64,000 nucleotides of DNA. Source: an uncultured Bacteroidota bacterium (GTDB taxonomy: Bacteria > Bacteroidota > Bacteroidia > Flavobacteriales > Flavobacteriaceae). The translations under genes and the position numbers were made by a program. The notes beneath the pieces are model-generated. The model worked only from the letters and a program-made list of their open reading frames with translations. It searched no databases and was not told the DNA's origin. This document shows positions 424 to 21,877 of the stretch, one piece after another (the stretch's first letter is position 1; every line of letters begins with the position of its first letter). The DNA lies in the NCBI GenBank assembly GCA_902628605.1, contig CACONV010000001.1:11101-75100 (forward strand), written 5' to 3'.

Positions 424-1104
424 TTAAAATTGTTTTATAAGTACCCGTGTAAATGTTTGACTATAGGTAGAATTTGATATCTCCTTTTGAAAAATTGCAA
501 ATGCTTCTTGCTCCTTTTTGTTATCCGGACCAAATTTAAAAGCAGACTCTAAATCAGGGTATGTAAGATAAATATACATATTCTCACCATTGTCCGAACC
601 GTGTACAATTTGTCCCATACTTACAAGTCCAGGGGGTTTAGATGATTTCATAAGTTTTCCAAAAGCAGCCGCGAAGCTAGGTTGATTTTTAACTTTAAAA
701 ACCCAAGCTTGTCCAATTTGTTCCGGCTTGTCTAGATTAAAATTAAGCAAACCTACGCCCGCACTTCTTCTAGCAGAATTAACATATTTACCCATATTAG
801 AAATATATAAACTCCACTTTGGCCCTTTTAAAGAGCCCCTGAAATCTGCAAGAGACTTTGCAGACTGACTAAACATACTTAAGATGTGAGTGCCTTTAAA
901 ATTATTACCCTTCATCGCAATACTAGAAAAGGATACGCTAACATCCTCTGGTATTTTGATACTTGAATAATAATCTGTAACGAGTTTAGCAACATTAGAT
1001 GCATTACCTCCATCGACGTCAATTATGACATCGAACCAATAAATATTTTGAGAGAAGCCATTGATAGATAATAATAAACTAAATAATAAAAGTAATTTTT
1101 TCAT
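424..1104 (-). CDS. Exported protein, candidate tandem ABM-like barrel (family member A)
   Basis: The 226-residue protein has a clear signal peptide, cut after about residue 18 (LLLSINGFSQ), and no lipobox, so it should be periplasmic or secreted. The mature part reads as two similar halves of alternating strand and helix. Each half begins with an aromatic-rich strand (IYWFDVIIDVD near residue 21, QAWVFKVKN near 130) and later has a helix of the 'F..fr..l' kind (SLADFRGSL). This is the pattern of antibiotic-biosynthesis-monooxygenase (ABM) type dimeric barrels, but the assignment is inferred from pattern only. Related exported proteins lie at 2276, 8651 and 9426. All four share the same leader motif. 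No catalytic residues can be named. Confidence 0.7.
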   Translation of the reverse strand: MKKLLLLFSLLLSINGFSQNIYWFDVIIDVDGGNASNVAKLVTDYYSSIKIPEDVSVSFSSIAMKGNNFKGTHILSMFSQSAKSLADFRGSLKGPKWSLYISNMGKYVNSARRSAGVGLLNFNLDKPEQIGQAWVFKVKNQPSFAAAFGKLMKSSKPPGLVSMGQIVHGSDNGENMYIYLTYPDLESAFKFGPDNKKEQEAFAIFQKEISNSTYSQTFTRVLIKQF

Positions 1105-1115
1105 TGAATTTTAAA

Positions 1116-1139
1116 TTTATGGTTAATACCATAAATTTA
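1116..1139 (-). promoter_or_regulatory. Promoter-leader module of the 424-1104 gene
   Basis: Read on the minus strand there is a -7-like box TAAATTTA (1139-1132), five bases, then TTAACCATAAA (1126-1116), then 11 bases to the ATG. The same 11-mer lies upstream of the genes at 2276, 8651 and 9426. Here it is also half of an inverted repeat, TTTATGGT-ATTA-ACCATAAA, which could be an operator. Confidence 0.55.
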
Positions 1140-1146
1140 GAAATTA

Positions 1147-1671
1147 TTATTTAGTTTTTGGCACATCAGCACGCTCATAAACGTAAAACATCTTTACCTT
1201 CCCGTCTTCAATAAGTGCATCGTGAACTTGAAATACTTTCACTTTTTCTCCCTCTACTTCTAATGTTAAATCATGACCTGACGTTACCCACTGCTTTAAA
1301 AAACCTTTTTCATCGGTTAATTGATTTGAAATAAAATAATTTGACTCCCAATTTGGAGAATTGTTTTTAAACCAATTTGATAAAAATTCTAAATGTGCCT
1401 CCGAACCGTCGATGAACTCACCTCTGGGACCCCATATTTTAATATCTTCAAAATTTAATTTTGAAATTGCTTCCAAATTCCCTTGATTATGGGCCTTAAT
1501 ATAATCTTCCCAGACCTTAGTGGCAGATTCGGCACCGCCATATAAATCAAGTTTTTTTCCTGATTCATCTGATACATCATATCCTATCCTTTTAGAAACT
1601 TCAACTTCTTTTACTTGCTGCTGGCATGAAATTAAAAAAGATATACTTATAAGTATAATTACATTTTTCAT
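1147..1671 (-). CDS. NTF2/SnoaL-like lipoprotein
   Basis: This is a 174-residue predicted lipoprotein. The signal peptide ends in a lipobox (SFLISC, Cys at 16). After a short linker comes one NTF2-like cone domain (about residues 47-165). It starts with the typical first helix AESATKVWEDYIKAHNQGNL and then has IWGPRGEFIDG, the acidic and aromatic pocket region of SnoaL-like proteins. It ends with DGKVKMFYVYERAD. SnoaL-like domains hold small hydrophobic ligands or act as cyclases and isomerases, but no substrate can be inferred here. The gene follows the START-domain gene at 1713 by 41 bases on the same strand and probably shares its transcript. The TTAACCATAAA leader motif is absent. Confidence 0.75.
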   Translation of the reverse strand: MKNVIILISISFLISCQQQVKEVEVSKRIGYDVSDESGKKLDLYGGAESATKVWEDYIKAHNQGNLEAISKLNFEDIKIWGPRGEFIDGSEAHLEFLSNWFKNNSPNWESNYFISNQLTDEKGFLKQWVTSGHDLTLEVEGEKVKVFQVHDALIEDGKVKMFYVYERADVPKTK

Positions 1672-1712
1672 TTTATAAATATTTTATTTGATTTACAATA
1701 TTAGTAAATTAT

Positions 1713-2150
1713 TTACGATCTGTATCCATCACTGCCAAAACCTTCTGACACACCACTTTGACAAAATTGCCTCAAACTTTCCAAATATTTTCCAACACTA
1801 TAATTCATATTAGCATAAAAATCATCTTGGTCTTCAAATGCTGATTGAGAATATCTAACTCTAGTTTTATCATCATTATCGTCTAATTCATACGTGTACT
1901 TTTGACCAATTAATGCATCTAAACTTGTGTCTACACATTCCCATGTTATTTTCTTGTTCTTTTCATATTCTATTATTTGAATTTTAAAATCAATCTCTCC
2001 AAATCTAAAGTTGATATTCCCATTTAATTTAGACTCGCCGGAAGTTTCAGTTGTATACCATTTTTGAAGCTTTTGAATATCGGTGAGTGCATCAAATACT
2101 TCATCGATAGGAGATTTTATGTGGAATAAATGTTTTATTGTATAACTCAT
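1713..2150 (-). CDS. START-like (SRPBCC/AHSA1) domain protein
   Basis: A 145-residue cytosolic protein with no signal peptide. It reads as one complete AHSA1-type START domain. HLFHIKSPIDEVFDALTD is the usual first strand and helix. Then come LQKWYTTETSGE, where the family has a W..p. motif, and FRFGEIDFKIQIIEYEKNKK, ITWECVD, and a C-terminal helix NYSVGKYLESLRQFCQSG. The family binds lipid-like or aromatic ligands or acts as an Hsp90 co-chaperone-like fold. The actual role here is unknown. It is probably the first gene of a minus-strand pair with the SnoaL-like lipoprotein at 1147-1671. Confidence 0.8.
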   Translation of the reverse strand: MSYTIKHLFHIKSPIDEVFDALTDIQKLQKWYTTETSGESKLNGNINFRFGEIDFKIQIIEYEKNKKITWECVDTSLDALIGQKYTYELDDNDDKTRVRYSQSAFEDQDDFYANMNYSVGKYLESLRQFCQSGVSEGFGSDGYRS

Positions 2151-2241
2151 TTTTTTGTATTTATGTTTTTATTACTTGTAATACTAAATAATAATCTCAA
2201 ATAATCAAATTTTTTAAAATTATTTTAAATGTTTTTTTTGA

Positions 2242-2266
2242 TATATTTACCCATATTAACCATAAA
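2242..2266 (+). promoter_or_regulatory. Promoter-leader module of the 2276 gene
   Basis: A -7 box TATATTTA (2242-2249) is followed by six bases and TTAACCATAAA (2256-2266), then nine bases to the ATG. The -7 box fits the Bacteroidota TAnnTTTG pattern except at its last base. Spacing to both the box and the ATG matches the other members of the set. Confidence 0.6.
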
Positions 2267-2275
2267 TTAAATATT

Positions 2276-3031
2276 ATGAAAAAACTACTATCGCTAATCC
2301 TTCTTTTATCGACTTTTGCTAGTGCACAGGTGTATCAAACATTTTCAATGCACTTTGTCAGAGTTGAGGGAGACTTAGAAGCGTTTGAGAAGGTTCAGTC
2401 AATTTATATGCAGAAAGTTGCTCAGAATGCTGTTGAAAAAGGAGATATTGCTTTTTGGGCTTTTCTAAGAAGAGTTCGCATGGACAACATAGATGACGAA
2501 GAAATAATGAATTATCTCTTTGTCCAATCAAACAAAGATATCACCGCAATGCTAAGTGATAAAAACAGATGGTGGGAAAATGCTCCAAACATTTTATCTG
2601 AAGATGAACAAGAACTAGTAGCAGCCTTAGAAAAATCATACACATGGACTGCCGACCACAGACACATTTTCGTTGACGAAGTAAGTATTGCAAATGGTCT
2701 TGGAAACTTTATACAATTTAATTTTGCCAGACCAAAAAATTTAAATGGTTTTATATCTGAAAACCAAACTCTGTGGAAAAATTATTTTTCATCCAATATG
2801 AAAAAAATGAACATGGTTAATTGGGGTGTTGGAAGACATATTGCCCCTTTATCTCAAAGATGGTCAACAGTTGTTACCTGGGACATGTTCGAGAGTCTTG
2901 AAGATTTGATGAAATATAGAATTGGTACAAATCCTCCAACTCCATCAAAATCTAAAATGAGTACTTATAATCCAGAGGGATTTAGAAGTTCGGTAATTTT
3001 TCAACCATTAAAATTTGCTGTAAAGCAATAA
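2276..3031 (+). CDS. Exported protein, candidate tandem ABM-like barrel (family member C)
   Basis: This 251-residue protein has a signal peptide cut near residue 17 (LSTFASAQ). The mature chain shows a first half, FSMHFVRVEGDLEAFEKVQS then DIAFWAFLRRVRM and NYLFVQSNKDI. A second half follows with FIQFNFARPKNLNGFISE, MVNWGVGRHIAPL, and STVVTWDMFESLEDLMKY. This repeats the order strand-helix-strand-strand and suggests two ABM-like barrels in one chain. It is similar in size and leader to the genes at 424, 8651 and 9426. The barrel assignment is by pattern, not by a search. It is followed by a good terminator, so it is probably a single-gene transcript. Confidence 0.7.
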   Translation: MKKLLSLILLLSTFASAQVYQTFSMHFVRVEGDLEAFEKVQSIYMQKVAQNAVEKGDIAFWAFLRRVRMDNIDDEEIMNYLFVQSNKDITAMLSDKNRWWENAPNILSEDEQELVAALEKSYTWTADHRHIFVDEVSIANGLGNFIQFNFARPKNLNGFISENQTLWKNYFSSNMKKMNMVNWGVGRHIAPLSQRWSTVVTWDMFESLEDLMKYRIGTNPPTPSKSKMSTYNPEGFRSSVIFQPLKFAVKQ

Positions 3032-3044
3032 AATTTTATTTGTA

Positions 3045-3082
3045 TTAACGTCTGCGTAAAATAGCAGGCGTTAATATTTTTT
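3045..3082 (+). terminator. Intrinsic terminator after the 2276 gene
   Basis: An 11-bp stem (3045-3055 with 3064-3074, one G-T pair) has an 8-base loop and is followed by a T-rich run. It lies 13 bases after the stop codon of the preceding gene. Confidence 0.8.
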
Positions 3083-3096
3083 AAATCAATATTTCT

Positions 3097-3507
3097 ATGA
3101 AAAAGATATTCATAACAATTGTAATCACATTTATTTCATCAATAATAATTGGAATTTTACCAGCAATCTTATTTTATGTTCCCAGTCAAATTGAATTTGC
3201 AAAGCAATTCCCAGACATTGTAAATGCAGAACCTGAACCTATATTTATGTTACTAGGTTCTTTATCTCTTTTAATCTTATGGGTAATAAGTTTTGACAAA
3301 ATGGGAATAAGTGATTACAAAAGTGGTGCTTTAACAGGTATTTGGTATTCCTTACTTTGTTTTATTTTCTTTGATTTTACTGTTTCAGGGTTAACTAACA
3401 TTTATTCAATGGAGTTCATAATAACAGACATCTTGCTTTCTGGAATTATTGGTGGACCTCAAGGTGCGATTATAGGTTGGTCACTCGGAAGATTTGCCAG
3501 GAAATAA
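3097..3507 (+). CDS. Hypothetical four-helix inner membrane protein
   Basis: A 136-residue protein with four predicted membrane segments: about residues 4-28, 50-66, 79-100 and 108-130. A polar loop rich in Pro and Glu (VNAEPEPI) lies between the first two. The C-terminus GGPQGAIIGWSLGRFARK is Gly-rich and ends in basic residues on the cytoplasmic side. I do not recognise the family. It follows the terminator of the 2276 gene and has no obvious partner. Confidence 0.65.
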   Translation: MKKIFITIVITFISSIIIGILPAILFYVPSQIEFAKQFPDIVNAEPEPIFMLLGSLSLLILWVISFDKMGISDYKSGALTGIWYSLLCFIFFDFTVSGLTNIYSMEFIITDILLSGIIGGPQGAIIGWSLGRFARK

Positions 3508-3640
3508 CACAGTATTTCTCTGATTTTCTTTGTAAGATATTAAATGTTGGTAGGCTTTTCGTTACAAATAATTTTACCTAATTATATCACTTTATTAAGA
3601 CTTTCTGTGTTAGATCAATTAGAAATGAATGAAATTGATT

Positions 3641-3729
3641 AAAAATGGTCAAAAGATGATCAAAAAATGAACAAAATTGACCAAAATTGACCAAAATTGA
3701 CCAAAATTGCTCAAAAAACGTACAAAAAC
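3641..3729. repeat. Phased A-tract array (probably curved DNA)
   Basis: Nine A-tracts of 4-6 bases follow one another at steps of almost exactly 10 bases. The central units are four near-perfect copies of CCAAAATTGA (3671-3710). One helical turn per A-tract is the classic arrangement for intrinsically bent DNA. The array ends 60 bases before the -7 box at 3789. The surrounding gene-free stretch (3508-3823) holds nothing else I can see apart from that promoter. Confidence 0.7.
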
Positions 3730-3788
3730 ATAAGAAATCAATCTTTGTAAATAAAAATCTATTTTTTCTGTATGGGTTTCAATTTTGA

Positions 3789-3811
3789 TATATTTGACAA
3801 TTAATCATAAA
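3789..3811 (+). promoter_or_regulatory. Promoter-leader module of the 3824 gene
   Basis: A perfect Bacteroidota -7 box, TATATTTG (3789-3796), is followed by four bases and TTAATCATAAA (3801-3811), a one-base variant of the shared motif. Twelve bases then lead to ATG 3824. This fixes the start: the upstream in-frame TTG at 3785 overlaps the promoter and cannot be the initiator. Confidence 0.65.
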
Positions 3812-3823
3812 TCGAAATCAAAA

Positions 3824-4729
3824 ATGAAAAATCTAAAATATATCATCTTATTAATTTTTATACTCCCACTTGTAATAACAAGTTGTGAAACTACAGGGGG
3901 TGTTTGGCTTAAAGAGGGTGAAAGGAAAGGTACAGCATATAAGTTTGGTGGCCAAAAAATGACAGATAATCTATTAGCACTTGCCGAAGCTTACTCTGAA
4001 AGAGACACGGAAAAACTTTTCACATACTATTCTGAAGAATTTTTAACCGAAAGAAGAAAAGAATGGTCAAAAGAATATTTAGAATCCATGGAATCTTTGA
4101 GTATGGTCCCTTATAAAATTATTCCTCTGGTTGGAGAGGATGGTAAATACAAGCAGGTTATTGCTTGGTCAGATGAAGAAAGAGTCTACAAAAATGGATC
4201 TTATGAAAAACTAAATCTTATGGAACTTTTTCTCCTAGACGATAAAGGGAAAGTAAATGATTTTAGACAGTGGAAAGCAATAGATTCAGTAAATTTTGGA
4301 ATGCCTTACGGAGGTAAGTTCTTTGGAAGAGAAAAAAGTGAAAATTCGGGAAGACCATTTGTTTTTTCTAATAGAGGCGAAACTTCTATACTGGAAAAAC
4401 TAGTTGAAGACTATAATAAAATGGATGTTGAAGGATTTAAAAATGCATTTGCTGAAGAATTTACACTAAATACTTATGATGGTAAAACCATGAAACTTAA
4501 AAACAGTGATCTTGGCAACTTATTTAAGCCTTACAGATCTGTCGATTGGAGTCCAATTGCTATTGTCCCAATTAAGATTAGAAATACCGACGCAGCTTCA
4601 GGTGTAATGGTTTATTCTTCAGAGAAAAGAGTCTTTAAAAATGGCAGAAAGTGGAAAAAAGATCTTATGGAAATTTTTTACTTTGATTTAGAAGGGAAAA
4701 TCTCTTCTATGGTGCAATTTGCTAGATAA
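3824..4729 (+). CDS. Lipoprotein with two NTF2-like domains in tandem
   Basis: A 301-residue predicted lipoprotein (signal peptide ending PLVITSC). It carries two copies of one domain. The first spans about residues 35-160 and the second about 180-301. The copies can be aligned by eye. LALAEAYSERDTEKLFTYYS matches LVEDYNKMDVEGFKNAFAEE. ERVYKNGSYEKLNLMELFLL matches KRVFKNGRKWKKDLMEIFYF. Both then end in an acidic-Gly-Lys turn. The pattern fits NTF2/SnoaL-like domains, which usually pair as dimers, so this chain may be a built-in dimer. The ligand is unknown. An ATG at 3824 is chosen over a TTG at 3785 because the promoter lies between them. Confidence 0.75.
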   Translation: MKNLKYIILLIFILPLVITSCETTGGVWLKEGERKGTAYKFGGQKMTDNLLALAEAYSERDTEKLFTYYSEEFLTERRKEWSKEYLESMESLSMVPYKIIPLVGEDGKYKQVIAWSDEERVYKNGSYEKLNLMELFLLDDKGKVNDFRQWKAIDSVNFGMPYGGKFFGREKSENSGRPFVFSNRGETSILEKLVEDYNKMDVEGFKNAFAEEFTLNTYDGKTMKLKNSDLGNLFKPYRSVDWSPIAIVPIKIRNTDAASGVMVYSSEKRVFKNGRKWKKDLMEIFYFDLEGKISSMVQFAR

Positions 4730-4749
4730 ATTTCAATTTTAATCTATTT

Positions 4750-4778
4750 AACCCTCTCCCTTTTAGAGAGGGTTTTTT
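4750..4778 (+). terminator. Intrinsic terminator of the 3824 gene
   Basis: A 9-bp stem, AACCCTCTC (4750-4758) with GAGAGGGTT (4766-4774), has a 7-base loop and is followed by a T run. It lies 20 bases after the stop codon. Confidence 0.9.
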
Positions 4779-4816
4779 AATTTAAAATTCTAAATAATAG
4801 ATAGGGGGTCTTTTTA

Positions 4817-4824
4817 TATATTTA
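4817..4824 (+). promoter_or_regulatory. Candidate -7 promoter box of the 4844 small ORF
   Basis: TATATTTA, the same box used by the shared module, lies 19 bases before the GTG of the small ORF at 4844. No TTAACCATAAA follows. Confidence 0.35.
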
Positions 4825-4843
4825 CAAATAAGAATATTCAAAA

Positions 4844-4939
4844 GTGGGTTACTTCTTTTCTAACTTAATTATTTATGCTTTTATTTTTTCACTCGTTGTT
4901 TTAGCGTATTATGCAATAAGAAAAATTAAAAACAAGTAA
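4844..4939 (+). CDS. Candidate small single-span membrane protein (31 aa)
   Basis: A GTG-started frame codes for 31 residues. It has one hydrophobic stretch (FFSNLIIYAFIFSLVVLAYY) followed by a strongly basic tail (AIRKIKNK), the usual layout of a tiny inner-membrane protein with its C-terminus in the cytoplasm. A -7-like box lies at 4817. The start is not certain, and no ATG exists in this frame. The rest of the gene-poor stretch 4730-5052 holds the terminator at 4750 and a weak inverted repeat (AAGACTA 4997-5003 with TAGTCTT 5027-5033). Nothing else was seen there. Confidence 0.4.
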   Translation: MGYFFSNLIIYAFIFSLVVLAYYAIRKIKNK

Positions 4940-5052
4940 TAAACAAGTGAATTCAATTTTCTTTGCTTAATCATGCTTCTTTTCCTAGTTGGAATGAAGA
5001 CTAAACTCATTTAAAACTTTAGGAAATAGTCTTAATTTAATATGCTGTGTCT

Positions 5053-5283
5053 TTATTTTAGAGTACAAGTTGCTCCAAAAGCTTCAAATAGAGCCTTTGA
5101 TACCTCAAGTAATTCCTTAGTAAGAGTCTCTCCACTGTCTGGATCCTTCATTCCTTCACAGAGTTGATCAAATGACTCACCGACGATTTCGCAGTTTAAA
5201 CAAAGGTTGTCTTCATCGTCTTTACTGCAACTTGTCAAGCTTAATGACAAAAAAAATACAATTATTGTTACAATTTTTTTCAT
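5053..5283 (-). CDS. Small lipoprotein, Cys-rich
   Basis: A 76-residue predicted lipoprotein. The signal peptide ends in LSLTSC, with Lys-Asp-Asp-Glu-Asp directly after the Cys, a charge pattern that in Bacteroidota often marks surface export. The mature part contains four further Cys (CLNC, QLC, ATC), which could form two disulfides. It ends in a helix (TKELLEVSKALFEAFG). The family is not recognised and no partner is apparent. Its promoter region faces that of the oxidoreductase gene at 5341. Confidence 0.7.
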   Translation of the reverse strand: MKKIVTIIVFFLSLSLTSCSKDDEDNLCLNCEIVGESFDQLCEGMKDPDSGETLTKELLEVSKALFEAFGATCTLK

Positions 5284-5290
5284 GGTTTCT

Positions 5291-5314
5291 TTTATTAGTT
5301 AACCCTCAAATATA
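5291..5314 (-). promoter_or_regulatory. Promoter of the 5053-5283 lipoprotein gene
   Basis: On the minus strand there is a perfect -7 box, TATATTTG (5314-5307), then four bases and TTAACTAATAAA, a looser relative of the shared leader motif. The ATG follows after seven bases. Confidence 0.45.
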
Positions 5315-5328
5315 AGCTTTTTGATATG

Positions 5329-5336
5329 TAAATTTG
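5329..5336 (+). promoter_or_regulatory. -7 promoter box of the 5341 gene
   Basis: TAAATTTG matches TAnnTTTG exactly and ends four bases before the ATG at 5341. A transcript starting at the usual distance would be leaderless or nearly so, unless the true promoter is further upstream. Confidence 0.4.
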
Positions 5337-5340
5337 TATT

Positions 5341-6024
5341 ATGAATATCAATTCTAAAAAAATTGAGGTTGCCGTTTTTGGAGCTACTGGTTTGATTGGC
5401 AGTATATTAATTAAGTATTTAAAACAATTCTCAAAATTCAAAAAAATTAATTTAGTACTTCGCTCGCCCGTAGACCTAAAAGGTGAAAATGTAAAAATTC
5501 ATAAAATCGATCTTTTTAAAAAGTCTGAAATCTTACATTCACTAAATACCAGTAAAGTGGTTTTTGTAGCTATTGGAACAACACTTTCTAAAGTTAAGGG
5601 TAACAAGGAAAAATATAGAAGAATCGAGTTTGGTATTACAAAAGATATTGCAGACTCCTGCAAAGAACTTGGAATTGATAAATTAATTTTGGTATCATCG
5701 TCCGGAGCAAATTTGAAAAGTAAAAGTTTTTACCTAAATCTTAAAGGAAGCATAGAAAAATACATGACCGATTTAAATTTGAAATCTGTTTCTATACTTA
5801 GGCCATCTTTATTATTAGGAAAAAGAAATGAGAAAAGATTTGTAGAAAAATTAGCCCAATTTGTAATACCAAAAATTTCTTTTTTCATGCCATCAAAATA
5901 TAAAGCAATTAAAGCTGAAACTGTTGCAAAAGCTATGTTACAACTGTCTACTACTGAAAGTAAAGGAGTCAAAATTTTTCATTACAAAGAGATAATGGAC
6001 CTAAGTAATAAATTTAAGATTTAA
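5341..6024 (+). CDS. NAD(P)-binding oxidoreductase, atypical SDR
   Basis: A 227-residue cytosolic Rossmann-fold protein. The dinucleotide-binding motif is GATGLIGS near residue 14, preceded by the strand KIEVAVF. It is followed by FVAIGTTLSKVKGN (near 78) and the strand LILVSSSGAN (near 116). The arrangement and short length resemble the HTATIP2/NAD(P)H-binding family of atypical short-chain dehydrogenases. The classical YxxxK catalytic pair is not clear, as in that family, where some members act as regulators. The substrate is unknown. It converges with the glycosyltransferase gene at 6040. Confidence 0.8.
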   Translation: MNINSKKIEVAVFGATGLIGSILIKYLKQFSKFKKINLVLRSPVDLKGENVKIHKIDLFKKSEILHSLNTSKVVFVAIGTTLSKVKGNKEKYRRIEFGITKDIADSCKELGIDKLILVSSSGANLKSKSFYLNLKGSIEKYMTDLNLKSVSILRPSLLLGKRNEKRFVEKLAQFVIPKISFFMPSKYKAIKAETVAKAMLQLSTTESKGVKIFHYKEIMDLSNKFKI

Positions 6025-6039
6025 ACAGCAAAGATTTAC

Positions 6040-6735
6040 TTATTTAATAAACAGGGTATAATATCTGTACAAAATATTGGGATTGACTTTTAAATAATGT
6101 AGTAAATGAATTATCCCAAAGTGAATTAGAAGTTTAAGGGTACCATTCTTTATAAACCTTCTAGAATCTGTTATGATTTCTCCATCCATGATTTTAAACT
6201 CTCCTTTTATGTAAATTTTTTTTATAAGATTTATATCTTCACAAACCTTGTAATCTTCATCATACCCACCACACAAAATGAATAATTTTTTGTGAATAAG
6301 TAGTGATTGATCTCCCCCTCTGCAAAAAATATTGTTGTATTTAGTTGCCTTAGATGACAATGATAGAAAAAAGTTTGAGGGTTTGAATTTGAGCTTAAAA
6401 CAACTTGCTTGATTTTTATTAGTCATTGATTGATAAATAACTTCTTTGAAATTTTTTGGAGGGATACAATCTGAATGTAAAAAATATAGCCAATTATATT
6501 TTGCGACTTTTGCTCCTTGATTCAACTGTTTTGCTCGACCTTTGTCATAATTGACTATTTTAATTTTCTTCTGATTTTTTAAAAAATTATTTATAGGAAA
6601 ATCAGTTCCTCCCTCAACCACAATAATTTCATATTTGGGCAGATTAAAATTTTTTATGTAATCTATTAATTTAAACAGATTATCCTTTTCATTAAGAGAA
6701 GGTATTATGATTGAGAGCCCTTGAGAATTTTTCAT
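6040..6735 (-). CDS. Family 2 glycosyltransferase (TIGR04283-like)
   Basis: A 231-residue single-domain GT-A glycosyltransferase. The N-terminus SIIIPSLNEKDNLFKLIDYI is the nucleotide-binding start of family 2. Then come EIIVVEGGTDFP, GRAKQLNQGAKVAK and WLYFLHSDCIPP, where the metal-binding acidic residue lies. This short layout matches the TIGR04283 group of bacterial family 2 transferases, which is often found beside radical-SAM or selenium-domain genes; none of those is present here. The acceptor is unknown. No membrane segment is obvious, apart from some hydrophobic residues near the C-terminus. Confidence 0.85.
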   Translation of the reverse strand: MKNSQGLSIIIPSLNEKDNLFKLIDYIKNFNLPKYEIIVVEGGTDFPINNFLKNQKKIKIVNYDKGRAKQLNQGAKVAKYNWLYFLHSDCIPPKNFKEVIYQSMTNKNQASCFKLKFKPSNFFLSLSSKATKYNNIFCRGGDQSLLIHKKLFILCGGYDEDYKVCEDINLIKKIYIKGEFKIMDGEIITDSRRFIKNGTLKLLIHFGIIHLLHYLKVNPNILYRYYTLFIK

Positions 6736-6799
6736 ATCGTAATGAAGAAAGTATATTTGAAATTAATACAGTATTTTTGATTAAGTAAAATATTAACTT

Positions 6800-8038
6800 A
6801 TGAAATTTGATCTTTCAACTTTTATTTTCAAAAAATTAGGAATAAATGAAAGTGCATCCATTGCCTTAGAAGCAATAATTTATTCTATCACTTTACTATT
6901 TTTCCTAATCATCATATGGATAGTTGGAAGAAAAATTTTAACTGTTTTGTTTATTAAGGTATCTAAATTAACCAAAACTAAATTTGATGATCTTTTATTA
7001 AAAAATAAAATTCCATCTACTCTAGCTTACTTCCCGCCAATTCTTTTATCGATTCGTTTATTCCCCATTATTTTAAGTGATGTAAAAGTTATAAGCGGGC
7101 CTATCATTTTATTAATGGATCTACTACTTACCTTATTGGTTATATCCATAATTAGAAGGGTACTTAACACCCTAAAAGATTTTCTTAAAACCATACCAAA
7201 CTTTCGAGACAAACCAATTGATAGCTACATCCAAGTAGTAATGATTTTTGTTTGGTTTGTTGGTATAATGATTATTTTTTCGATAATCTCAGGAAAAGAT
7301 ATTGGTGCCTTTTTAGCGACACTAGGTGCTCTATCTGCAATAATCTTACTAATTTTTAGAGATACTATTTTGGGTTTTGTGGCAAGTATCCAGGTTACTA
7401 TTAATGACATGGTACGAATAGGTGATTGGATAACGATGAAAAGTTATAATGCTGATGGAGATGTAATTGAGATAAATCTCTCAACTGTAAAAGTTCAAAA
7501 TTTCGATAAGACAATTACAACTATCCCAACATATAGATTGGTTTCGGATTCATTTGTCAACTGGAGAGGTATGAGTGAATCTGGAGGAAGAAGAATTAAG
7601 AGGTCCATTCTAATTAAAGTTTCCAGCATTAAGTTTTTAGAAGACAGTACACTTTCTGAATTAAAAAAAATTGAGAGAATTTCAGATTATATCAATGAAA
7701 GAAAAAATGAAATAGAGGAGGAAAATAAAACTAGAAACATTAACAAAAATTTACTTCTTAATGGTAGAAACATTACAAATATTGGTTTATTTAGAAGATA
7801 TGCTCTTGCATATCTAGATAGTCATCCTGAAGTAAATAAAGATTTGACTTTAATGGTAAGACAACTAGCTCCTACCGCCCAGGGAGTTCCAATTGAAATT
7901 TATGCCTTTGCAGCTGACAAAAAGTGGGAAAACTATGAACAAATAATGTCGGACATATTCGACCATCTCCTAGCTTCTATCGCATTTTTTGAGTTAGAAT
8001 GTTTTGAATATTCTTATCCAAGTAATCCCAAAAAATAA
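6800..8038 (+). CDS. Mechanosensitive channel of the MscS family, YbdG type
   Basis: A 412-residue inner-membrane channel. There are about five membrane segments in residues 20-200. The pore helix region includes IGAFLATLGALSAIILLIF (near 170). The beta domain follows (TINDMVRIGDWITMK). The string NWRGMSESGGRRIKRS near 255 is a hallmark of the E. coli YbdG (MscM) branch rather than MscS itself. Members of this branch open under osmotic downshock. The central insertion NERKNEIEEENKTRNINKN is variable in the family. It stands alone, with its own short leader. Confidence 0.9.
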   Translation: MKFDLSTFIFKKLGINESASIALEAIIYSITLLFFLIIIWIVGRKILTVLFIKVSKLTKTKFDDLLLKNKIPSTLAYFPPILLSIRLFPIILSDVKVISGPIILLMDLLLTLLVISIIRRVLNTLKDFLKTIPNFRDKPIDSYIQVVMIFVWFVGIMIIFSIISGKDIGAFLATLGALSAIILLIFRDTILGFVASIQVTINDMVRIGDWITMKSYNADGDVIEINLSTVKVQNFDKTITTIPTYRLVSDSFVNWRGMSESGGRRIKRSILIKVSSIKFLEDSTLSELKKIERISDYINERKNEIEEENKTRNINKNLLLNGRNITNIGLFRRYALAYLDSHPEVNKDLTLMVRQLAPTAQGVPIEIYAFAADKKWENYEQIMSDIFDHLLASIAFFELECFEYSYPSNPKK

Positions 8039-8064
8039 GTTCAAAATTTGCTAAGTAATATTTG

Positions 8065-8086
8065 TATATTGCATTCTAATCATAAA
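8065..8086 (+). promoter_or_regulatory. Variant promoter-leader module of the 8096 gene
   Basis: TATATTGC (8065-8072) is followed by three bases and CTAATCATAAA (8076-8086), then nine bases to the ATG. This is the most divergent of the six modules, but the spacing to the ATG is the same. Confidence 0.45.
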
Positions 8087-8095
8087 TAAATCAAA

Positions 8096-8611
8096 ATGAA
8101 ATATAAAATTTTAGTTTTTTTATTGGGAATCATAATTATTAATTGTGATACCAAGCCAAGTCAAGAATGCACGGATTCACTTAATGCAAGTTCGAAAGTT
8201 AAAAATAATGTTGAAATGTATTCAAAAATTTGGGATACAGCTATAAACGGAAGAAATCTTGAAGTTATTAATTTAGAAAATTTTGATGTAAATATAAAAA
8301 CGATTACTGCAGATGGAGATGTTGTTGGAATTGAAGCCTTCAAAGCTTATTACAACAATTATATCACAGGGTTTTCTGATGCTGAATTTAATATCATTGA
8401 TGCTTTTGGTCAGGGGGATAAAGTAGTCAAGCACTGGAGTTTTAAAGGAACTCACGATGGAGAGTTTTTTGGAATCCCAGCAACTGGTAAAAAAGTTAAC
8501 TTGATTGGAACTACACTTGTTTTAATGAAAGACGGGAAAATTCTTCAAGAACAAGATTTTTTTGATAATTACTCCTTTTTAGCTCAATTAGGACTCATCC
8601 CAACGGATTAA
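8096..8611 (+). CDS. SnoaL-like ester-cyclase family lipoprotein
   Basis: A 171-residue lipoprotein (signal peptide ending in IIINC). One SnoaL-like domain follows. It has the first helix NVEMYSKIWDTAINGRN and the pocket region ADGDVVGIEAFKAYYNNYI. The signature of the ester-cyclase branch is also present: HWSFKGTHDGEFFGIPATGK, then LMKDGKILQEQDFFDNYSFL and QLGLIP at the end. Known relatives close polyketide rings through an Asp or His in this pocket, but many others have unknown roles. Export to the periplasm is unusual for such enzymes. It lies 39 bases before the 8651 gene, which has its own promoter. Confidence 0.85.
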   Translation: MKYKILVFLLGIIIINCDTKPSQECTDSLNASSKVKNNVEMYSKIWDTAINGRNLEVINLENFDVNIKTITADGDVVGIEAFKAYYNNYITGFSDAEFNIIDAFGQGDKVVKHWSFKGTHDGEFFGIPATGKKVNLIGTTLVLMKDGKILQEQDFFDNYSFLAQLGLIPTD

Positions 8612-8615
8612 CTTT

Positions 8616-8640
8616 TATATTTACAATTATTAACCATAAA
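8616..8640 (+). promoter_or_regulatory. Promoter-leader module of the 8651 gene
   Basis: TATATTTA (8616-8623), six bases, TTAACCATAAA (8630-8640), ten bases, then ATG. Spacing is identical to that at 2242 up to the motif. Confidence 0.6.
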
Positions 8641-8650
8641 CAATATTAAA

Positions 8651-9355
8651 ATGAAAAAGATTTTATCTATTATATTATTATTTTCAATTTATTCATACTC
8701 TCAAGTTGGATACTGGACTGCTTACAATTTTCACGTGGAAGAAGGAAGTGAAGAGCTAGTTCTAAAATATTTTAATGAATACTTTTCTAATAATAAACTT
8801 GCTGAAGGGGTAACTGTTTCTTTATTTGAAAATCACTTTAAAGACTCAGGTTGGAACTTTAGCCATCAGATTCTATTTGTTGGACCTCTGGATGGTCTAG
8901 CCACACAATATTCTACAGCTCCTTCTGATGCTTGGAGTTTGTTTATATTAAAAATGAATAGACACATAACTTTACATAGCTCTTTTATGGGAGACATAGA
9001 CATATCCTATGGGAATGGTGCTACTAAGGATTTTCCAATTCAAAGAGTTTATTCCTTAGAAGCTAATGATCCAGCGAAATACTTACAGGCTTTTAAAAAG
9101 TATAACTCTAAATACAATAAGGCTGAAAGATTAATATTAACTGGAGGATTTTCAGCAGGTATCGACAGAACATATGGAAATACTTGGATTGTTCAAAGCT
9201 TTAAAGATTTTAAAGGTGCTTTCGGAGGTCATGCGAAATTGCCATCCAAATACAGTCCTGAAGAACACAGGAAAGCTTGGATGGAAAGTAGAAAAAATAA
9301 TGGTGGAGTAGAATTGAGAAGATCTTTTTTAAGAATACTCTTAGCAACTTACTAA
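8651..9355 (+). CDS. Exported protein, candidate tandem ABM-like barrel (family member B)
   Basis: A 234-residue exported protein with a signal peptide cut near residue 17 (FSIYSYSQ). It matches the gene at 424 in layout: GYWTAYNFHVEEGSEELVLK aligns with IYWFDVIIDVDGGNASNVAK. Also shared are VTVSLFEN/VSVSFSS, then a Trp-Ser-Leu segment (AWSLFILKMNRHI versus KWSLYISNMGKYV), and a C-terminal SFLRILLATY versus TFTRVLIKQF. These two are therefore true paralogues. The alternation of strands and helices suggests two ABM-like barrels. No active site can be assigned. Confidence 0.75.
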   Translation: MKKILSIILLFSIYSYSQVGYWTAYNFHVEEGSEELVLKYFNEYFSNNKLAEGVTVSLFENHFKDSGWNFSHQILFVGPLDGLATQYSTAPSDAWSLFILKMNRHITLHSSFMGDIDISYGNGATKDFPIQRVYSLEANDPAKYLQAFKKYNSKYNKAERLILTGGFSAGIDRTYGNTWIVQSFKDFKGAFGGHAKLPSKYSPEEHRKAWMESRKNNGGVELRRSFLRILLATY

Positions 9356-9375
9356 TTTAATATTAGTAATGATAT

Positions 9376-9404
9376 AAAAAACCCTTCAAATTGAAGGGTT
9401 TTTT
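9376..9404. terminator. Bidirectional terminator between 8651 and 9426 genes
   Basis: A 12-bp stem, AAAAAACCCTTC (9376-9387) with GAAGGGTTTTTT (9393-9404), has a 5-base loop and sits between two convergent genes. A-tracts and T-tracts on either side let it work in both directions. Confidence 0.9.
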
Positions 9405-9425
9405 TTAAAGCTACAAGTCATATTT

Positions 9426-10154
9426 TCAATTCCAAGGTGAACTAAGTTCTGGTAATCTTTGGTGATGCCTTGTCATATTTTCAATTACTGAAATTTGCAA
9501 TTTTTGTGAATCATCTTCGTATGAGTCTTCACCATACATTTCATTATATTTTTCAACCACTTTTGAAAAATTTGAATTATCTGACGCCTCACCTGTAAAG
9601 TTTTTGTGGTGATATCTTACCTGAACCCAATTACCATCACATCCAGATGCGCAATTTAAAGTTGAAACTCTTTGTGGCCATTCAGCAGCCTCAAGCGCTT
9701 TAACAAGTCTTGTTCTATACCTCCAAAAATCTGTCCCCATTCCAGGTTTAATTTTATAATACAAAATTCTTCTATGATTAACCCTGGACATATCTTCAGG
9801 CGTGTAACTAGCATCTGCATTTCGATACCATATTCTATTACCAACAGATTGGTGTAAAGCACCAGTCGTTTTTTGCCAGTATGCGTTACCAACCTTATCT
9901 ATTTTGTCAAAATCTTCAACTTTTGGAGCATATTGCATTCTGACAAAATTCTGAGCTTCAGGGCCAGTAAGAATCTGAAATGTAATATATCTGGGTTGTC
10001 CTTCTTTACTGTTATAAAGTTTTGTTTTGTTTGCTACAGCAGACATAAATTTTTCCATATTTTTTTGTTCCACTTTTAATAATCGGCTCTGTAAAAATTG
10101 AGCTGTTGATACGAAAGAGAATAAAAAAGTAGCGAATGTTAGTATTTTTTTCAT
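9426..10154 (-). CDS. Exported protein, candidate tandem ABM-like barrel (family member D)
   Basis: A 242-residue protein with a signal peptide cut after residue 18 (FSFVSTAQ). The first half starts LQSRLLKVEQKNMEKFMSAV and has RYITFQILTGPEAQNFVRMQ. The second starts RRILYYKIKPGMGTDFWRYR and has WVQVRYHHKNF. This gives a repeated strand-helix-strand-strand order as in ABM barrels. One pair of Cys (CASGC) lies in the second half. Trp and Tyr are abundant. It is more distant from A and B than they are from each other. The shared leader motif ties it to them. Confidence 0.7.
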   Translation of the reverse strand: MKKILTFATFLFSFVSTAQFLQSRLLKVEQKNMEKFMSAVANKTKLYNSKEGQPRYITFQILTGPEAQNFVRMQYAPKVEDFDKIDKVGNAYWQKTTGALHQSVGNRIWYRNADASYTPEDMSRVNHRRILYYKIKPGMGTDFWRYRTRLVKALEAAEWPQRVSTLNCASGCDGNWVQVRYHHKNFTGEASDNSNFSKVVEKYNEMYGEDSYEDDSQKLQISVIENMTRHHQRLPELSSPWN

Positions 10155-10164
10155 TTTAATTTAA

Positions 10165-10188
10165 TTTATGGTTAACAGTGTAAATATA
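10165..10188 (-). promoter_or_regulatory. Promoter-leader module of the 9426-10154 gene
   Basis: On the minus strand: TATATTTA (10188-10181), five bases, TTAACCATAAA (10175-10165), ten bases, then ATG. All 11 motif bases are identical to those upstream of the genes at 424, 2276 and 8651. Confidence 0.6.
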
Positions 10189-15342: not shown

Positions 15343-16815
15343 GTGAAAAAAATTGCGTCGATTATTTTTTCTTTTATTTTTTGTTTCTGTACTAATTTCA
15401 ATAACCATGGATCTAATGACCAAGGTCTAGATCCAAACATAATTATAATTTTTATGGACGATTTAGGTTATGGTGACATAGTGAACTTTGGAGCGATAGA
15501 TTATCAAACACCCAATCTTGATGAATTAGCTAATCAAGGCATGACTTTCACAAACTTCTACTCTGCTCAAGCCGTATGTAGTGCCTCAAGAGCTGCATTA
15601 TTGACTGGATGTTATCCAAATAGAATAGGAATAAGTGGCGCTTTGTTTCCCCAATCAAAAGTGGGTTTAAATGAAAATGAAGTTACTATTGCTGAAATGT
15701 TAAAGGAGAAAGGTTATTCTACAGCGATTTTTGGTAAATGGCATTTAGGGCATCAAGAAAAGTTCAACCCACTTAATCATGGATTTGATAATTATCTTGG
15801 CATTCCATATTCTAACGATATGTGGCCGGTTGATTACGATGGAAATCAAATTTTAGATGAATCTAATTGGAAGAAAAAAGCTTACCCTCAACTTCCTTTG
15901 ATGAAAGATTTTGAAAAGATTGATGAAATTAGAGATTTGAATGATCAGTCAAAATTAACAACATTGTTTACTGAGGAATCTGTCAAATTTATCAACAAAA
16001 ACAATGACAAACCATTCTTTTTGTACTTACCCCATCCAATGCCACACGTTCCAATTGCTGTTTCAGAAAAGTTTAAGGGGAAAAGTAAGCAAGGTTTATA
16101 TGGTGACCTTATGATGGAAATAGACTGGTCTGTAGGTGAAATTGTTAAAGCTTTAGAAAAAAATAATATTGAAAACAATACCCTTATTGTTTTCACAAGT
16201 GATAATGGGCCTTGGCTAAATTATGGGAATCATGCTGGGTCAACAGGTGGACTAAGAGAAGGTAAAGGAACTAGTTTTGAAGGTGGGCAGAGAGTTCCAA
16301 CTATAATGAAGTGGCCTAACCTTATTCCCATTGGGAGTGTATCTAATCAAATGGCGTCTACGATTGACCTTTTACCAACCATTGCCAATCTGGTTTCTAC
16401 AAAATTACCAAACCACATAATTGATGGAATTGACATTACATCTGTTTTAAAGGGAGATAAAAAATCTAATCCAAGAAATAATTTTTACTATTATTATGGG
16501 GACAATAACTTGGAGGCTGTAAGAAAAGATAATTGGAAACTAGTACTTCCACATAAAAGTAGATCTTATAAAAATGTTTTACCCGGTGATAATGGATATC
16601 CAGGACCTTATTATCAAATCCAAGCAGAATACTCTTTGTATGATCTACGAAGGGATCCTGGAGAAGAATATGATGTGAAGGAGTTATATCCAAAAGTTGT
16701 TTTTGAATTAGAAAAATTAGTTGAGAGTGCAAGAAAAGATCTGGGCGATAATCTAACTCGTAGAATAGGTGAGAATAGGAGAGAACCTGGTTTTTCTAAT
16801 ACTGCTGAAGATTGA
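15343..16815 (+). CDS. Type I sulfatase (lipoprotein), CSASR active site
   Basis: An exported type I sulfatase. The formylglycine motif is CSASRAALLTG. The early metal ligands lie in FMDDLGYGD. GKWHLGHQEKF and SDNGPWLNYGNHAG hold further active-site residues. I start at GTG 15343, which gives a normal lipoprotein signal (KKIASIIFSFIFCFC). The ATG at 15247 would add a second hydrophobic stretch (WVVFLFLYILL) before it and remains possible. Final length would be 490 residues. The enzyme would remove sulfate esters from a glycan in the periplasm or at the cell surface, after its Cys is oxidised by a formylglycine-generating enzyme such as the one at 31357. Confidence 0.9.
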   Translation: MKKIASIIFSFIFCFCTNFNNHGSNDQGLDPNIIIIFMDDLGYGDIVNFGAIDYQTPNLDELANQGMTFTNFYSAQAVCSASRAALLTGCYPNRIGISGALFPQSKVGLNENEVTIAEMLKEKGYSTAIFGKWHLGHQEKFNPLNHGFDNYLGIPYSNDMWPVDYDGNQILDESNWKKKAYPQLPLMKDFEKIDEIRDLNDQSKLTTLFTEESVKFINKNNDKPFFLYLPHPMPHVPIAVSEKFKGKSKQGLYGDLMMEIDWSVGEIVKALEKNNIENNTLIVFTSDNGPWLNYGNHAGSTGGLREGKGTSFEGGQRVPTIMKWPNLIPIGSVSNQMASTIDLLPTIANLVSTKLPNHIIDGIDITSVLKGDKKSNPRNNFYYYYGDNNLEAVRKDNWKLVLPHKSRSYKNVLPGDNGYPGPYYQIQAEYSLYDLRRDPGEEYDVKELYPKVVFELEKLVESARKDLGDNLTRRIGENRREPGFSNTAED

Positions 16816-21070: not shown

Positions 21071-21877
21071 ATGAAAAAATATATTTTCCTTTTATTAATA
21101 GTAATTCCTGTAATAAGCTGCGATATATCGTCAGACAATAACCAAGGTACCACCGAAACAAATAATTATATCCAGTGGTCCAACGGGAATGAACTTCATG
21201 ACGAAATGATAAGAAGTGGAATTAATCACTTCTTAAATATCGAAAGAGAAAAGGCCTATGTTTTTTTTGAAAAGGCAACAAAATTAGACTCTTCCTCTTT
21301 TGCTGCACATGTAGTAATCGCGTCTATGTCTAGACCTAATTCAGAAAAACAAGAAATTCACTACGAATTGGCAAAAAAGCATTCAATGAATAAAAATGAA
21401 AATTCTAAAAGATTTGTTTCACTGCTGGATATTAAAAGTAAAAACGGAAACAGAGGTATTTGGGGGTCTTCAGCAGAAAAAAACAGTATATGGGAAGAAA
21501 TGTACGATGCTGAACCAAGGGGAAGGTTTATTCAGTTTTATAGAGCAACCTCAAGCCCAGATTTAAATCAGAGAATTAAAAAATTAGAGGAACTAAGGGA
21601 AAAATGGGGGGAACCTAATAATGCAGCAGTGATAAATTACTTGGGTTATTTATATTATCAGTCGGGTAATAAAGAAAAATCAAAAGAAACTTTTATGAAA
21701 TACTTAGAATTATATCCTGATGGTTATAATTCTTACGATTCAATGGCAGAGTTTTTTATGTTTGAAAAAGATTATGAAGAGGCAAAAAAATATTATGAAA
21801 TGGTATTAGATGTTTTTCCTTTTTCAAACTCTGCATTAACCTCTTTAAATGAAATAGAAAAATTATTAAAAAATTAA
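21071..21877 (+). CDS. TPR lipoprotein
   Basis: A 268-residue lipoprotein (signal peptide ending IPVISC). After a low-complexity spacer ([13 protein letters not shown]) come TPR units: [20 protein letters not shown] and [15 protein letters not shown]. The last two units are [20 protein letters not shown] with [16 protein letters not shown], and [20 protein letters not shown] with [15 protein letters not shown]. These are protein-docking repeats at the cell envelope, and the partner is unknown. It lies 20 bases before the DUF1080 gene on the same strand and is likely co-transcribed with it. Confidence 0.85.

Follow-up and report, generated by a model that had tools for sequence, protein, structure and literature searches.

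The systems closest to the element described here are the sigma-ABfr/sigma-A promoter (−33 TTTG, −7 TAnnTTTG), the SM5 promoter class of Flavobacterium psychrophilum (TAnnTTGY), the A-rich, Kozak-like signal of Flavobacterium johnsoniae, and GibS regulation in Bacteroides. In the available text of the source papers, the box lies at −12 to −5 in the F. psychrophilum maps, leaders have a median of 24 and a mean of 65 bases, and SM5 genes are tied to lipopolysaccharide, amino-acid scavenging and gliding (PMC9723704); F. johnsoniae shows an excess of adenines at −14 to −11, of which the ones at −12 and −13 accompany translation (PMC6847099). How genes are controlled in marine Bacteroidota has been little explored. 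We analysed 64,000 nucleotides from an uncultured member of the Flavobacteriaceae (contig CACONV010000001.1, positions 11,101 to 75,100; the window), in which an 11-base element, TTAACCATAAA, or a variant of it stands between a −7-like box and the ATG of six genes. A sequence-only reading of the window had proposed these genes as one candidate regulon. With a probability of roughly 0.6, this promoter-leader module marks a genus-level candidate regulon of small, putatively exported proteins; it may be written as (T-rich or TTTG)-TAWATTnn-N2-6-TTAACCATAAA-N9-12-ATG.

Four exact copies of the 11-mer were found in the window, against 0.22 expected from shuffles of the window sequence, and none of 100 shuffles reached four. 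These are the copies that had been reported before genes 424, 2276, 8651 and 9426, and the close variants reported before 3824 and 8096 proved to be TTAATCATAAA and CTAATCATAAA, the latter differing from TTAACCATAAA at two positions and so escaping a one-mismatch scan. The pattern TTAAYCATAAA-N8-13-ATG gave five sites against 0.10 by shuffles. The bare 11-mer with one mismatch anywhere was not above chance in the window (8 against 7.06); the signal therefore lies in exact identity combined with position. At all six genes the box precedes the element by 3–6 bases and the ATG follows it by 9–12, as had been claimed: for genes 424, 2276, 3824, 8096, 8651 and 9426 the box-to-motif gaps are 5, 6, 4, 3, 6 and 5, and the motif-to-ATG gaps 11, 9, 12, 9, 10 and 10. 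The six modules and their genes (protein lengths in amino acids, aa) are as follows:

424..1104, minus strand: gene 424, exported-looking 226-aa protein of cluster 18 (signal-peptide rule)
1116..1126, minus strand: leader element TTAACCATAAA of gene 424 (exact match)
1132..1139, minus strand: −7-like box TAAATTTA of gene 424, 5 bases from the element (from sequence)
2242..2249, plus strand: −7-like box TATATTTA of gene 2276 (from sequence)
2256..2266, plus strand: leader element TTAACCATAAA of gene 2276 (exact match)
2276..3031, plus strand: gene 2276, exported-looking 251-aa protein, predicted tandem alpha+beta (ferredoxin-like) barrel
3789..3796, plus strand: −7 box TATATTTG of gene 3824 (from sequence)
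3801..3811, plus strand: variant element TTAATCATAAA of gene 3824 (sequence scan)
3824..4729, plus strand: gene 3824, lipoprotein-like 301-aa protein with a weak DUF4440/NTF2-type match, below cut-off
8065..8072, plus strand: −7-like box TATATTGC of gene 8096, of the TAnnTTGY form (from sequence)
8076..8086, plus strand: variant element CTAATCATAAA of gene 8096 (pattern scan)
8096..8611, plus strand: gene 8096, lipoprotein-like SnoaL protein (PF07366, E 1.3e-25)
8616..8623, plus strand: −7-like box TATATTTA of gene 8651 (from sequence)
8630..8640, plus strand: leader element TTAACCATAAA of gene 8651 (exact match)
8651..9355, plus strand: gene 8651, exported-looking 234-aa protein of cluster 30 (signal-peptide rule)
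9426..10154, minus strand: gene 9426, exported-looking 242-aa protein, predicted tandem alpha+beta fold at moderate confidence (AlphaFold2 (AF2) predicted local distance difference test (pLDDT) 75.6)
10165..10175, minus strand: leader element TTAACCATAAA of gene 9426 (exact match)
10181..10188, minus strand: −7-like box TATATTTA of gene 9426 (from sequence)

The same arrangement recurs in G001, a relative and the nearest to the window of the genomes examined, with 24% of sampled 31-mers in common. All 17 exact copies of the 11-mer in G001 were read. Nine of them have a −7-like box upstream, an ATG 9–11 bases downstream and an exported-looking open reading frame (ORF) of 163–260 aa; these nine head nine different protein clusters, with differing box-to-motif spacers and leaders. 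Five lie within 17 kb on the contig matching the window region and four elsewhere. The eight other copies are not modules: seven fall within open frames that are 132 to 728 codons long, and the last (L009) abuts, spacer-free, the ATG of a 254-aa ORF. Sixty genomes, seven of the genus and 53 of other genera, were then scanned with the positional pattern, using the reversed pattern as control. The pattern was above control in the lineage (58 matches against 16 in the seven genus genomes; 65 against 8 for a slightly shorter pattern) and at control level elsewhere (91 against 92). As far as these 60 genomes show, the module characterises the genus. The sequence-only reading had proposed a search of the whole genome and of relatives, and had named chance frequency before unrelated genes as a refuting outcome; this outcome did not occur.

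Composition statistics were obtained from 781,092 bases of G001 (about 43% of the genome), comprising 640 ORFs with 35-base upstreams. Fragments of TTAACCATAAA and of the −7 box head the over-represented 8-mers of these upstreams, with TAACCATA occurring 11 times against 0.7 expected. Nine exact matches were observed at 4–18 bases from an ATG, against a mean of 0.04 for permuted motifs, one permutation giving six. Genes carrying the element with at most one mismatch are mostly exported-looking (11/13, against 137/627 of the others; Fisher p 3.8e-6).

Sites were collected across the genus with the pattern [TC]TAA[TC][CT]ATAAA and an ATG at 6–13 bases, the box not being a selection criterion. 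This yielded 81 rows, from which 18 heading ORFs shorter than 50 aa were removed (15 of these sit within open frames of at least 80 codons), leaving 63 sites, window included. The sites fall into 26 protein clusters, 25 of them exported-looking (23 by rule, 2 by eye) and drawn from several families, among them tandem barrels, NTF2/SnoaL proteins and DUF3237. The common element therefore occupies the same position before many separate transcription units, at nine of the 17 G001 copies and in the 26 clusters. Among the cluster representatives, a TAWWTT box lies 2–6 bases before the element in 25/26 (13 at 6, 7 at 4 and 3 at 5), and the ATG 9–12 bases after it in 26/26 (sought at 6–13). The two bases immediately preceding the element are T in 21/26 and A in 20/26, the last bases of the box vary, and TTTG abutting TATATTG recurs at several sites. 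No strong −33 signal was seen in the 26 aligned upstreams, which extend 35 bases back. If the box-to-ATG length were fixed, the two spacings should be anti-correlated; no significant anti-correlation was seen (r −0.16, permutation p 0.25). Motif-column composition in the collected sites is set by the search pattern and is uninformative on base tolerance; in orthologues and wider scans, other changes seen were A/G at position 1, T at 4 and T/G at 7.

The claim of a candidate regulon is supported by this recurrence, elsewhere in G001 and in 7/7 genus genomes, before putatively exported proteins of other families, and the six-gene set can be enlarged to a genus-wide candidate set. All six window proteins satisfy the simple signal-peptide rule, in keeping with the export ascribed to them, 3824 and 8096 as lipoprotein-like. 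Their description as small alpha+beta proteins held in part: the structural model bears it out for 2276 (AF2 pLDDT 89.7), and it is likely for 9426 and for the SnoaL protein 8096, and weak for 3824, while Pfam searches gave no family for 424 and only a below-cut-off match for 8651. In the models, two ferredoxin-like repeats are predicted to form an ABM-like tandem alpha+beta barrel. Most clusters form a few paralogue groups by BLAST links and HHalign probabilities; a single superfamily is not claimed, because no HHalign link joined the 424/8651 group with either the 2276 or the 9426 group. A sequence search against solved structures (PDB) gave no convincing match. Among 395 genomes sampled from the class, the 2276 family turned up in G001 alone; it is nevertheless not genus-restricted, since a protein search gives relatives named Cyclobacteriaceae and Flammeovirgaceae.

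Conservation was assessed in orthologous upstreams collected without use of the motif, and most relatives keep the element or a near form for 424, 2276, 8651 and 9426. For 424 it is identical in five orthologous upstream rows (88–97% protein identity; four distinct contigs) and becomes ATAACTATAAA in a relative at 70% protein identity, a form also found in 1/3 orthologues of 8651. Orthologues of 2276 have CTAACCATAAA in two relatives and TTAACCTAAAA in a third; those of 3824 have TAAATCATAAA or GTAATCATAAA in three relatives; and the 8096 element is unchanged or differs by one or two changes in four. Duplicate contigs (L147, L163, L164, L150) and upstreams of fewer than 70 bases were left out of the following two comparisons. 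In a shift-tolerant scan, the 11-mer ranked 1 of 60 in conservation for 8651 (3 orthologues) and for 9426 (7), and 2 for 424. An ungapped comparison gave a motif rate no lower than that of the leader (55/308 against 42/282 differences), a result distorted by one-base leader indels.

The element is non-palindromic, has a fixed orientation and lies close to both box and ATG, which leaves two live readings: a transcription-start element or a 5′-terminal RNA element. From the published flavobacterial −7 box geometry, the first base of the element would fall near +1 to +3 of the mRNA, and the element as a whole would cover roughly +1 to +13 of a short leader. Transcription would start at or just before the element, and the members of the set would be co-regulated. 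The transcription-start reading fits the short box distance in 25/26 representatives. Under it, a dedicated trans-acting factor would read TTAACC at the transcription-start step, as a downstream core-promoter or operator element, and the AAA end, which most members have at about −13 to −11, may double as the usual A-rich translation determinant. Our preference for this DNA-level reading is tentative.

Several observations weigh against a dedicated regulon read in this way. The non-palindromic motif is unusual for an operator, and no regulator was noticed near four clusters when ORF starts were read by eye, with no domain search. In raw counts the 11-mer is the commonest 11-mer in the G001 upstreams (nine genes), yet in simulated sets the commonest 11-mer can reach 12, and A/T-only words outrank its pieces among 9- and 10-mers; each contig of the G001 sample was, moreover, chosen with at least one exact match, and signal peptides were assigned by a simple home-made rule. 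Conservation ranks were just 9, 14 and 26 of 60 for 2276, 8096 and 3824, and the element is lost in the G003 orthologues of 8096 and 3824 and missing from the EAC674 orthologue of 8096. Neither window gene 1147, a neighbouring, exported, weakly NTF2-like gene, nor two neighbouring exported-looking paralogues of module proteins in G001 (L055:11354, 12576) has the element; marking therefore does not extend to every exported or paralogous gene. Conversely, a non-exported, HU-like DNA-binding gene carries TTAACCATAAA or near forms 9–10 bases before its ATG, with a −7 box about 14 bases upstream of the element, in 6/6 genus orthologues found (L189, L190, L191, L192, L193, L194).

The other live reading places recognition in the RNA: the 5′-terminal UUAACCAUAAA of a short leader would be recognised by a small RNA or an RNA-binding protein, through which the translation or decay of the whole set is controlled. 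The fixed orientation and the ATG distance of 9–12 bases in 26/26 representatives are in its favour, as is the small RNA GibS of Bacteroides, which is reported to pair with translation initiation regions (PMC7366714), and the spacing at the HU-like gene, where the ATG distance is kept and the box distance is not, favours an ATG-anchored RNA reading. However, the box remains 2–6 bases away in 25/26 representatives despite the variable leaders of flavobacteria (median 24, mean 65, in the text available from PMC9723704), so the start site seems coupled too. The eight non-module copies in G001 lie in open frames or touch an ATG, and complementary 9-mers outside ORFs in the 781 kb occur at four non-module places, none clearly a small-RNA gene. 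The C/T changes at positions 5 and 6 of the motif were dictated by the search pattern and so lend no weight to G-U pairing. We regard RNA-level control as possible though doubtful, and its more specific form as unlikely: a 5′-terminal mRNA tag that is read, once transcription has begun, by a small RNA or by an RNA-binding factor dedicated to it, setting the output of the exported barrel/NTF2-like set. In that form the first dozen or so bases of the leaders would be alike in bacteria without Shine-Dalgarno sites, and the choice of start site and start codon would be coupled in one ~40-base cassette acquired by different gene families. A small RNA of perfect complementarity, sought as exact 11-mers across the G001 genome and as 9-mers in the 781 kb, is unsupported.

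Two explanations dispense with a shared factor, and both appear improbable. Paralogues might still carry a promoter and leader inherited from a single ancestor and yet not be regulated together now, as the few paralogue groups and the five exact-copy G001 modules clustered within 17 kb of one contig would allow; but the module also precedes SnoaL/NTF2 and DUF3237 families, the exact 11-mer precedes nine G001 clusters though their spacers and leaders differ, and orthologue ranks are 1, 1 and 2 of 60 for 8651, 9426 and 424, set beside the lower ranks of the other three. Since several unrelated families carry the module, shared descent alone is insufficient; inheritance through duplication probably contributes, without accounting for these families. 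Alternatively, the module could be an expression cassette that merely gives abundant proteins a strong start and translation signal, A-rich at −13 to −11, and involves no dedicated factor. Its AAA coincides with the translation-linked A-rich positions reported in the available text on F. johnsoniae (PMC6847099), but the specific part is TTAACC and not the A run; no such fixed sequence appears in base frequencies downstream of 64 G001 TAnnTTTG boxes, where variable spacing could blur it; and 137/148 exported-looking genes of the sample lack the element at up to one mismatch. A general high-output leader is not favoured, given the composition downstream of TAnnTTTG boxes and the unmarked majority of exported-looking genes. 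The suggestion that the element replaces a Shine-Dalgarno site likewise found no support as a general device, because the motif is missing from most genes, and only its AAA end meets the known A-rich region. Chance or AT-rich composition fits the one-mismatch count in the window, but the exact and positional tests are far above expectation and refute it as the source of the exact module; we give it virtually no credence.

Further features were noted in the window. Box and element of gene 424 sit, as read by eye, within a 12-base inverted repeat (window 1112–1139; TAAATTTATGGT, a 4-base spacer, then ACCATAAATTTA), of which 11-base arms are kept in G001; no comparable repeat was noticed by eye at the other five window sites. 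Short AT-rich near-tandem repeats (AAAATTGACC and similar), also seen by eye, occupy 3625–3720, immediately upstream of the 3824 promoter. At 21071–21877 an exported lipoprotein-like gene has the box TTTGTATATTGT, as in many modules, and the leader ACTAAAATAAA in place of the element. Elsewhere, the adjacent exported-looking genes L168 1399 and 2483 carry weaker forms (ATAATCATAAA, TTAATCGCAAA) at similar spacing, which suggests a looser consensus and a larger set, and on L051 a module-like start (TTAATTATAAA, near 15450, minus strand) precedes a 24-codon ORF that begins like a 144-aa cluster-23 protein and is perhaps a truncated copy of it. Relatives of 9426 occupy 20 loci in the genome collection; the 11-mer is absent from its marine Cyclobacteriaceae relatives. 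In several of these (L095, L097, L099, L100, L101) two barrel-type genes, one the orthologue of 9426 and the other coding for an exported protein of 223 aa, have a different leader, around AACCAAACA. Of the other matches to this pattern that were read, most head no long ORF (loci were available for 20 of the 38 listed matches), and it is a lead only.

The module unites, by a signal from sequence alone, about two dozen clusters of mostly uncharacterised and apparently exported proteins as one testable unit. Some of these proteins share a predicted fold with monooxygenases and haem enzymes. The module offers a handle on their role, through expression timing, and on whether short leaders without Shine-Dalgarno sites hold gene-set-specific information. 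Among the papers listed by searches of one library on 11-mer, leader, promoter, 2pgc and barrel/SnoaL themes, none evidently dealt with the module, which we do not claim to be unpublished.

Among known proteins, the closest to those of the module are 2pgc (a marine metagenome protein), putative ABM-type monooxygenases and sulfur oxygenase reductase; identity is about 8–11% in the rows compared, and the proteins of the module differ in being, apparently, exported. The module would resemble GibS regulation if the short common site near the ATG serves as a target, but no small RNA was found in the 781 kb of G001, and the set far exceeds the two targets of GibS named in the available text (PMC7366714). 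With the sigma-ABfr/sigma-A promoter it would share, as far as the accessible parts of the sources describe it, a TAnnTT box near the presumed start, a short leader and no Shine-Dalgarno site (PMC6847099, PMC9723704), whereas its box is TAWATTnn with the last bases free, often has TTTG or a T run directly before it, shows no clear −33 element in the 35 bases examined and is followed by the 11-mer. Several modules with TATATTGT/GC fit the TAnnTTGY box of SM5, but these are some members only: module boxes mix TTGY, TTTA, TTTG and TTAA endings, and the downstream 11-mer is absent from the SM5 description in the available text (PMC9723704). Finally, the AAA of the module at about −13 to −11 matches the A-rich, Kozak-like signal of F. 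johnsoniae; that signal is general and loosely defined, whereas the 11-mer of the module stands before a single class of genes.

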